A DNA stretch of 55,578 nucleotides from positions 1-55,578 of the IMG/VR virus record IMGVR_UViG_3300045120_000280; one strand, given 5' to 3'. The notes under the pieces are model-generated. The model was given only the letters and a program-made list of their open reading frames with translations. It did not search any database and had not been told where the DNA came from. Position numbers and translations under genes: made by a program. Of the stretch, positions 20,336 to 22,314 are shown piece by piece. Position 1 is the stretch's first letter. Each line of letters starts with the position of its first letter. The stretch comes from a virus.

Positions 20336-20553
20336 GCGACCAACCCAAACCCGCGTCAGGCATGGAAACTGAATTGCCCACCGAGATTCACGTTAAGATT
20401 GACCCATCACTCTTACCCAAACCCGCGACAGGCGAATGGACGGTGTATTCAGTGATGAAACTGCGACAGAAGCACTGGCACGAAGAAGATAAAAACAACG
20501 CCATAGCTATTGCCCACAACGCCGCACTCGCCGCCGAGAGGAAGAAGAAATGA
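20332..20553 (+). CDS. Small hypothetical protein (73 aa)
   Basis: The ATG overlaps the previous stop and the stop overlaps the next start, as in a coupled operon. The first half is proline-rich; the second half is a helix (KNNAIAIAHNAALAAERKKK). No family recognised. Confidence 0.55.
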   Translation: MSDQPKPASGMETELPTEIHVKIDPSLLPKPATGEWTVYSVMKLRQKHWHEEDKNNAIAIAHNAALAAERKKK

Positions 20554-20903
20554 TAGACGACGACGAAATCAAAGACATCGAGAAGAAGATGCAGGAGTGC
20601 ATCGCTGATCTTCGCAAAGCCGCTCCGCACGTTGGGGCAGCACGACAGGTCAAGGAATTTTCAAGTGACCAGCGCAAGAACGCCATGGCCGCCGAGCAGA
20701 TCAAATTCATTTCACGCGGGGAATCCGTGTCGGCGGCTGAGAACCTTGCCCGCTCCAGCCCTGTCTATCTGGAGAAATTCAAGCAACTGGAGAAAGACTA
20801 CGCCAATGCCTGTGCCACCATAGCCAACTGGGAAGCCACCTTATCCAGATTTGAAGCGTGTAGGTCTATGTTAGCGATGGCCCGTCAAACCCTTGGTTTA
20901 TGA
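20550..20903 (+). CDS. Conserved phage helical protein with recoded C-terminus (117 aa)
   Basis: The protein is almost entirely helical (coiled coil near residues 75-105) and ends FEACRSMLAMARQTLGL. As I recall, a widespread family of small phage helical proteins ends in a related ExxRSxLS motif, so this tail belongs to the gene. The final 13 codons (20862-20903) encode exactly the same residues as the last 13 codons of the next ORF, yet all eleven codons other than the two ATGs are different. The ending here therefore looks like a replacement copy brought by an inserted element. Confidence 0.75.
   Translation: MIDDDEIKDIEKKMQECIADLRKAAPHVGAARQVKEFSSDQRKNAMAAEQIKFISRGESVSAAENLARSSPVYLEKFKQLEKDYANACATIANWEATLSRFEACRSMLAMARQTLGL
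20862..20903 (+). repeat. Recoded copy of the 13-codon target ending
   Basis: Codons agg tct atg tta gcg atg encode RSMLAM, and the next seven encode ARQTLGL, then tga. Compared with 21260-21301, the amino acids are identical but all eleven codons other than the two ATG codons differ. Nucleotide identity is low while protein identity is 13 of 13. Confidence 0.85.
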
Positions 20904-21259
20904 GATTAGGTTCCAAAATGTCAAAGCAGCAGAGAATGAACGTAGGCACAGGAAGAAAACGTGCTTGGGACTCTTTGCCTGTAGAGGAACAAAAGCGGAT
21001 AGCGGATAAACTAATAAAAGACCGTTCAGAATATCTGAAGACGCACCCGGGGAATAGGGCCGGTCAAATAACTCCGGATGCGGTCAGGCGCAAACTCTCA
21101 CGCGCTACCAAGCGATGGAGAAACTCTGTTCGGAACGAATGTATGGTTTCACTGAATGGTAAATGGTCTCGACGTTTTGACCATTGCACTGTTTGTGGCA
21201 CACGATCTTATCGTCACAGCAGCCATGGCGTTTGCACTTCCTGTGACTGTAAAAGACGC
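20862..21259 (+). mobile_element. 398-bp inserted element that duplicates and recodes its target's 3' end
   Basis: The element lies between two copies of the 13-codon ending of the gene at 20550. It supplies a synonymous 3' end (20862-20903), then a zinc-finger ORF (from 20900), which runs in frame into the displaced native ending (21260-21301). Both junctions keep the ATGA/GTGA stop-start overlaps, so operon coupling is undisturbed. The ORF is richer in A-ending and AT codons than its neighbours. No terminal inverted repeats were seen. The layout matches homing-type insertions rather than a transposon. Confidence 0.65.
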
Positions 21260-21301
21260 CGCTCCATGCTGGCCATGGCGAGGCAGACACTGGGACTGTG
21301 A
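20900..21301 (+). CDS. Zinc-finger protein of the inserted element, fused to the displaced target ending (133 aa)
   Basis: ATG 20900 overlaps the upstream stop; ATG 20918 (MSKQQRMNVGTGRKRAWDS) with AGG seven bases before it may be the true start. Residues 20-75 are basic helices (LPVEEQKRIADKLIKDRSEY), and residues 90-120 hold CTVCG...HGVCTSC, a zinc ribbon like those in DNA-binding homing proteins. Residues 121-133 are the native tail RSMLAMARQTLGL of the neighbouring gene. No HNH, GIY-YIG or LAGLIDADG catalytic motif is obvious. It may be a minimal homing nuclease, a partner of one, or a regulator. Confidence 0.7.
   Translation: MRLGSKMSKQQRMNVGTGRKRAWDSLPVEEQKRIADKLIKDRSEYLKTHPGNRAGQITPDAVRRKLSRATKRWRNSVRNECMVSLNGKWSRRFDHCTVCGTRSYRHSSHGVCTSCDCKRRRSMLAMARQTLGL
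21260..21301 (+). repeat. Displaced native copy of the 13-codon target ending
   Basis: Codons cgc tcc atg ctg gcc atg and the following seven encode the same 13 residues as 20862-20903. Codon choice here (ctg, gcc, cag, gga) fits the GC-rich habit of neighbouring genes better than the upstream copy (tta, cgt, caa, ggt), supporting this as the original. Confidence 0.8.
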
Positions 21302-21438
21302 GTTTCCTCGTAAGCTGGATGGCATTCATCGCCTGGAACTGGTGGATGATTAACTTCTACCGCGACACCCGGGGCGAGTCGATCAGGGACGTCTGCAACC
21401 GCGCTGCGGATTGGCTTTACGATATTGGGAACAAATAA
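21298..21438 (+). CDS. Small membrane-associated protein (46 aa)
   Basis: GTG at 21298 overlaps the preceding stop (GTGA). Residues 2-20 (SFLVSWMAFIAWNWWMINF) are strongly hydrophobic and aromatic and could span the membrane; the rest is polar (GESIRDVCNRAADWLYD). The overlap with the displaced native ending suggests it was originally coupled to the gene at 20550. Function unknown. Confidence 0.5.
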   Translation: MSFLVSWMAFIAWNWWMINFYRDTRGESIRDVCNRAADWLYDIGNK

Positions 21439-21469
21439 TTGACAAACCCCGGGTACGGGGGCTTAATCG
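21439..21469 (+). promoter_or_regulatory. Promoter before the 63-aa gene
   Basis: TTGACA (21439-21444) is followed after 17-19 bases by a -10 region reading CTTAATCG; TAATCG (21464-21469) is the best box with 19-base spacing. GTG 21476 is six bases further. The perfect -35 and start-codon distance match other leaderless promoters here, although the spacer is long. A CCCGGG lies in the spacer. Confidence 0.5.
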
Positions 21470-21475
21470 TACTCC

Positions 21476-21667
21476 GTGAAAACTACTCATACCAGCGCAA
21501 TGGGCGGAGGATACGGAATCAATCGCAATCTTAAGGCGGCCTCGCATCTCGGGGTGGCATGCACACCGCATGCTGGAAAAGGGTGTGTTGTGCCGGGATT
21601 GAACAAGCAGATGCCGGGAACCAGGAAGTCAGGCTACGCTAAGATCAGCGTTAAGAAGAACGCTTGA
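21476..21667 (+). CDS. Small glycine-rich protein, leaderless GTG start (63 aa)
   Basis: GTG at 21476 lies six bases after a -10 box and has no Shine-Dalgarno. The protein is basic and glycine-rich (AMGGGYGINRNLKAASHLGV, later GLNKQMPGTRKSGYAKISVK). No family recognised. It precedes two proline-rich proteins that look like virion parts, so it may belong with them. Confidence 0.5.
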   Translation: MKTTHTSAMGGGYGINRNLKAASHLGVACTPHAGKGCVVPGLNKQMPGTRKSGYAKISVKKNA

Positions 21668-21681
21668 GGGAGTAATTCCCC

Positions 21682-22314
21682 ATGACGTACGACGAATGGG
21701 AACAATCTCAATTCGATAAGAACCCGTCTCCAGTCGGCGGGATGACCATGGGGGGAAACTCGCCCCCGCTGCCACCACCGAACAACGCAGGTGGACTGCT
21801 TCCAAGTTTCGGATACGACACCGGGAGCAAAATTTACAACGCTTTCCGTGGTGTGGAGAACTTCCTTCGTCCACGCCCCACCACCAATCCTTCCTTCGCT
21901 CCCATGGGCGGCGGCCAGCCTTCCTTTTCGGTGCCGCCGGGAGAGCGACAGGCACTTCAGATGCCCGGTCTTCAGCGCGTGATGGACGCTCGACGCCGAA
22001 TGCTCGATCTGGCCGACCCTCAGGTTAGGGCAGGAATTCCTCCACCTAGTTTACGGAAAACTTTAAGAAACTGGTGGGATCGCACCGGATACCAGGAGCC
22101 ACCAAACTTCAGGGCCATGCCAAGAATGAACTCCGGGCCTGAGGCGACACCATATCCACGGCCTCCGTGGCTCAATATGCGGAACTGGATGGACACCGGC
22201 GAGCGAGGGCCGCTTCCATTGCAGTCATACCGCCCCGGGGGTTATCCAGCTCCAGCCAATCCGCAGATGCCGGAGGCATACGACACCTTGACCTCAGGTG
22301 GCGCATTGGCATGA
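21682..22314 (+). CDS. Proline-rich probable virion protein (210 aa)
   Basis: GGGAG nine bases before the ATG. The N-terminus MTYDEWEQSQF resembles MSFEEWYDQHF of the next gene, suggesting a shared targeting or docking tag. The rest is Pro/Gly/Met-rich with several NFRAMPRM-like and RPPWLNMRNW segments, typical of extended proteins packed in capsids. No enzyme motif. Function is inferred only from composition and the shared tag. Confidence 0.6.
   Translation: MTYDEWEQSQFDKNPSPVGGMTMGGNSPPLPPPNNAGGLLPSFGYDTGSKIYNAFRGVENFLRPRPTTNPSFAPMGGGQPSFSVPPGERQALQMPGLQRVMDARRRMLDLADPQVRAGIPPPSLRKTLRNWWDRTGYQEPPNFRAMPRMNSGPEATPYPRPPWLNMRNWMDTGERGPLPLQSYRPGGYPAPANPQMPEAYDTLTSGGALA

Follow-up and report, generated by a model that had tools for sequence, protein, structure and literature searches.

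A 55,578-nt stretch of viral DNA (IMG/VR record IMGVR_UViG_3300045120_000280, positions 1 to 55,578; hereafter the window) probably carries a small homing-type mobile element that replaces the 3′ end of its target gene and encodes a putative nuclease. Comparison with related phages shows the predicted element to sit after codon 104 of the target gene, to supply the rest of the gene and to displace the native 3′ end, which now lies downstream in frame with the element's zinc-finger ORF. The insertion model put forward in an earlier note on this DNA is supported by relatives that lack the insert and by a second insertion, in the phage contig L006, with a replacement ending and a native remnant of its own.

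Results

The target gene (20550..20903, plus strand, as are all features below) encodes a small helical protein of 117 aa, native to about codon 97–104 and then continuing into a foreign 3′ end. This gene and the next ORF (20900..21301) share the terminus RSMLAMARQTLGL, followed by TGA. The two 39-nt copies encode the same 13 residues and are identical at 24 of 39 nucleotides, and all 11 codons other than ATG are unlike; under this phage's codon usage, the chance that a random synonymous encoding shares none of these 11 codons with the downstream copy is P = 0.006. The upstream copy (the replacement ending with its stop codon, 20862..20903, apparently brought by the element) is composed of rare codons, with a codon-adaptation score of 0.40, a value as low as this being reached by random synonymous sequences at P = 0.0013. 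The downstream copy (the displaced native ending with its stop codon, 21260..21301) uses codons common in the phage (0.83), forms the tail of the second ORF and is joined by a GTGA overlap to the next native gene. Thus, the duplicated ending, complete codon change, overlap and coordinates given in the earlier note are all present in the sequence, and its description of an atypical upstream copy and a downstream copy in native style matches the codon-adaptation scores. Its word "recoded" is perhaps too strong, since long divergence of a foreign allele could give the same result and, in L006 (below), the replacement ending departs from the native one in protein sequence as well. No second recoded tail duplication was detected in the window when ORF tails were scanned against the following 3 kb.

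The whole inserted element spans 398 bp (20862..21259, with the right end loose by about 6 bp) and has a GC content of 0.48 vs. 0.55 for the phage. Its 133-aa ORF starts on an ATGA overlap, contains a CxxC...CxxC zinc finger (HCTVCGTRSYRHSSHGVCTSCDCKR, 21185..21259) and terminates at the displaced native stop codon; its codon-adaptation score (0.57) is below those of all 24 other genes scored (0.68–0.80). The return to native sequence is marked by the next gene (46 aa, 21298..21438), which matches that of the nearest relative, L002, at 125/138 nt.

IMG/VR was searched with the target protein, target alignments and the neighboring exonuclease; all gave the same contigs, among which seven distinct relatives of the locus were recognized. 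Six element-free lineages, namely L002 (with its near-copy L001), L003 (with L004), L005, L010, L011 and L022, have no zinc-finger ORF and a single native-style ending, as had been predicted for relatives without the insert. The earlier note had regarded its model as vulnerable on two points, and here the tail proved to be present in the relatives, and no copy of the zinc-finger ORF turned up elsewhere in the phages examined. L002 is identical to the window at 270/291 nt over codons 1–97 and at only 12/21 nt over codons 98–104 (20841..20861), and the atypical segment therefore starts near 20841; codons 98–104 are likely either a co-converted donor flank or the start of the replacement segment. 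The native end of L002 is closer to the downstream copy (34/39 nt) than to the upstream copy (26/39 nt), so the downstream ending is the native one and the upstream ending is foreign. The 13-codon recoded segment and 398-bp insert originally proposed are thereby refined, the atypical stretch being longer than 13 codons and the right boundary loose by about 6 bp.

A single native ending followed directly by the GTG gene had also been predicted. The single ending was found, and the direct junction is not visible in L002 because a different ORF occupies that place. This ORF (L002:4355–4875, also present in L001), which lies between the target and the next gene, encodes up to 188 aa, MRELREKAICKDGCH..., and is unmatched in Pfam and NCBIfam. 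Most relatives differ in what follows the target gene, and this region appears to be a hotspot of small insertions. Separately, the left flank of the insert (window:20850–20878) matches the L003 lineage (L003:4292–4354) at 25/29 nt and the sister L002 at 19/29 nt, a possible trace of an L003-like donor phage, though 25/29 nt is too short a match to rely on.

In the second carrier, L006, the target gene is followed by a homologous zinc-finger ORF (140 aa, 48% aa identity). The sister of L006, L022, is without the zinc-finger ORF and has the single ending SMLAMSREVMKTLDSSTY. Identity between L006 and L022 drops from 95% over codons 92–104 to 38% over codons 105–117, because the L006 target gene terminates in the foreign, AT-rich RSLLSMSKETLKLL and that of L022 in RSMLAMSREVMKTLDSSTY. 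The L022-type ending is nevertheless kept in frame in L006, as the C-terminus of the zinc-finger ORF (MLAMSREVMRTLEG); the L022 ending matches this displaced copy at 32/39 nt vs. 15/39 nt for the replacement copy. In L006 the protein encoded by the replacement ending is similar to the native one and not identical, as it is in the window; as this replacement alters the protein too, that the ending functions is an assumption, which weighs against the model. Both insertions fall after codon 104, and both ORFs start on an ATGA overlap with the replacement stop codon. The frame shift is equal in both carriers, and through it the element ORF reads into the displaced ending and uses its stop codon. 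Mismatches in codons 98–104, 5′ of the insertion, are seen in the window; there are none in L006. In this contig (L006:4784–4837), a perfect 15-nt direct repeat, ATTCCAAATGAGCGA, with a spacing of 39 nt, immediately follows the displaced ending and lies around the start of the next small ORF.

In a tree built from the flanking exonuclease and the target gene, the window with L002 and L006 with L022 form separate supported pairs, each carrier thus having an element-free sister. The two carriers and six element-free lineages constitute a presence/absence polymorphism at a single site among close relatives. Because the carriers belong to separate supported pairs, at least two changes are needed, which would be either two gains or many precise losses.

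The zinc-finger ORF products (133 aa in the window, 140 aa in L006) comprise helical stretches and the CxxC...CxxC motif, which follows SLNGKWSRRF; the finger and this segment just 5′ of it are the parts best conserved between the two element copies. Identities by codon position between the two ORFs (0.62/0.67/0.45) and the presence of whole-codon indels in their alignment suggest that the ORF encodes a protein under selection. No meaningful match to it was found in Pfam, PHROGs, NCBIfam or PDB, the Pfam and NCBIfam matches obtained all being below cut-off and mutually unrelated. Profiles from Pfam, PHROGs and NCBIfam detected no HNH or GIY-YIG domain in the ORF, and no intein-like LAGLIDADG endonuclease match to the 133-aa ORF was found in Pfam or NCBIfam. 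Two AlphaFold models, from the two sequences, consist of helices and a zinc ribbon at low confidence (pLDDT 58–59) and yield no fold of use; searching PDB structures with the first model returned nothing significant. The finger weakly matches ribosomal protein uS14, and these matches suggest that it may be a zinc ribbon. We consider the product a candidate site-specific DNA-binding protein or nuclease. The ORF showed neither a motif nor a fold of a nuclease, and both its cleavage activity and its identity as a nuclease are what we infer from the anatomy of the insertion.

Searches beyond these relatives gave little. A tblastn search of 50,697 phage records with the target and zinc-finger proteins had no match, and fragments of the finger gave none or chance-level matches. 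One scan of genome contigs was empty and the other returned a lone 13-residue match inside an unrelated gene. Four contigs considered as relatives (L008, L014, L036 and L037) were rejected on inspection as having unrelated frames. The window encodes a further zinc-finger-like protein (window:16512–16937), located 5′ of the exonuclease region, with weak C2H2 and CpXC matches below cut-off and no sequence kinship to the element ORF. Portal- and terminase-like genes, recognized by eye (window:4247–9374), lack a Pfam match and gave nothing convincing in PHROGs, which places this phage group far from described phages.

The longest DNA run invariant in the six native genes is the 12-nt ATGCTGGCCATG (codons 107–110). 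It is intact in both displaced endings and altered in both replacement endings (ATGTTAGCGATG in the window, CTTTTAAGTATG in L006). In the window it occurs in the displaced ending only (21266..21277), where its left-hand context is element sequence. From this distribution we propose ATGCTGGCCATG as the core of a putative target site; its conservation may in part reflect protein constraint, and the replacement endings could be diverged alleles that were not selected for resistance.

Discussion

The proposed mechanism would operate in a mixed infection, with an element-bearing and an element-free phage in the same cell. The native 3′ end of the element-free genome, with its core ATGCTGGCCATG, would be cut near codons 104–107, most likely by the zinc-finger protein. 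Repair of the double-strand break would then copy the element, using the 5′ part of the target gene as the left arm and the displaced native tail as the right arm, and the product would be a chimeric target followed by the element and the recipient's own displaced ending. If a nuclease recognizes the native 3′ end, as we infer, simply restoring the gene would bring the cut site back, and the restored part must therefore differ. The replacement ending would keep the target's C-terminus yet be without the site, and the right junction would have lost the site's left-hand context; recutting is therefore expected at neither junction. The mismatches over codons 98–104 in the window would fit co-conversion of the donor flank.

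Two established classes of element were rejected. No terminal inverted repeats or short target-site duplication, as for a DNA transposon or insertion sequence, are present at the boundaries. A self-splicing intron is not indicated, there being no Rfam match at 20400–21700 and the gene being complete upstream of the ORF; folding detected no RNA structure at the left junction (z = +1.2).

Ordinary phage mosaicism could also bring foreign sequence to this position, if a block comprising a donor's target gene and zinc-finger gene were moved by homologous or short-homology recombination with no element-encoded cutting, the zinc-finger protein being an accessory DNA-binding regulator. The different small ORFs that follow the target gene in different relatives would be expected under such exchange, as would the absence of a recognized nuclease in the zinc-finger ORF. 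However, a simple block replacement should erase the recipient's ending, whereas it persists, in the same frame, in both of the insertions, which share their codon position, and we consider mosaicism unlikely. We give still less weight to cutting in trans by another phage nuclease, in which, as in collaborative homing, the zinc-finger ORF would just assist or be carried along. An ORF that has no catalytic motif, and for which AlphaFold returns only helices and a zinc ribbon at low confidence, is compatible with that role; nevertheless, no homing-type nuclease was recognized among the window proteins scanned (part of the genome), and conservation of the ORF at the same site in two phages favors a direct role. 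The least probable account, to which we attach very little credence, has no separate insertions, the tail having been duplicated in one lineage with drift of one copy, or a single ancient insertion having been inherited vertically and lost elsewhere. While vertical descent would likewise give each carrier a displaced ending resembling that of its own lineage, it needs four or five losses, each restoring the native end, vs. two gains, and local duplication does not explain why the upstream copy is foreign and the downstream copy resembles that of the sister.

A homing-type element replacing the 3′ end thus remains our preferred reading, although the known carriers number only two. Its most specific form is more tentative, and we put it at slightly less than an even chance: a previously undescribed phage homing element that replaces a gene's 3′ end, driven by a predicted minimal endonuclease of about 120 residues with a terminal zinc ribbon, bringing its own cut-resistant rescue and borrowing the displaced native stop codon. 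If correct, this would extend to bacteriophages a homing strategy of yeasts and fungal mitochondria, with a selfish element escaping self-cutting via a rewritten target-gene end and without an intron or intein. It would also be a natural counterpart, in about 400 bp, of engineered gene drives with a recoded rescue. The small protein family is perhaps a new nuclease, and such insertions would offer one route to phage genes that are chimeric at their 3′ ends.

The earlier note knew of no described phage example of this completeness, and no phage precedent was found in the literature searched, in which subscription journals are mostly outside coverage. Its fungal mitochondrial precedent holds, although not as the closest one. 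Mitochondrial mORFs replace gene C-termini in Allomyces (atp6) and Glomus (atp6, atp9, cox2 and nad3), and relative to sister species their inserted endings have 64–81% and the displaced native ends 91–98% nucleotide identity, with the protein conserved (PMC3630166). The phage endings are alike in this respect (67% inserted, 87% displaced, relative to the sister), but mORFs are LAGLIDADG or GIY-YIG proteins in mitochondria, whereas here the setting is phage DNA and the protein belongs to a different, unrecognized family.

Free-standing homing endonucleases of T4-like phages (seg and mob) share the phage setting, homing in mixed infections and a start that overlaps the upstream stop codon (UAAUGA for mobE), and some phage homing enzymes likewise have a zinc-binding module (PMC2988022). 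In contrast, these are intergenic GIY-YIG or HNH enzymes that cut at a distance of at least hundreds of bases, and no replaced gene ending was found described for them. The synthetic HomeR home-and-rescue gene drives (PMC7968924) likewise combine a drive inside the target gene with a rescue that is recoded and cut-resistant; being Cas9-based and built for insects, they serve as an analogy only, by which the element resembles a miniature gene drive of natural origin that brings along a copy rescuing the gene it targets.

The yeast WHO elements are closer. In Torulaspora and Lachancea these occupy a host gene's 3′ end and bring an allele of it that resists their own endonuclease (Coughlan et al., 2020; PMC7282813). 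As in the phages, the host 3′ end is replaced, the old end persists downstream as a fragment serving as a homology arm, there is no splicing, and a zinc finger is present, at the C-terminus of the WHO endonuclease (PMC7282813). Unlike the phage protein of 133 aa, which has no recognized nuclease and is fused to the displaced ending in an element of less than 420 bp in all, the WHO product is a long, intein-derived LAGLIDADG-type protein of the eukaryotic nucleus for which cleavage has been shown. By analogy, then, the predicted phage element would work like a WHO element or an mORF, yet its protein does not belong to the WHO family.
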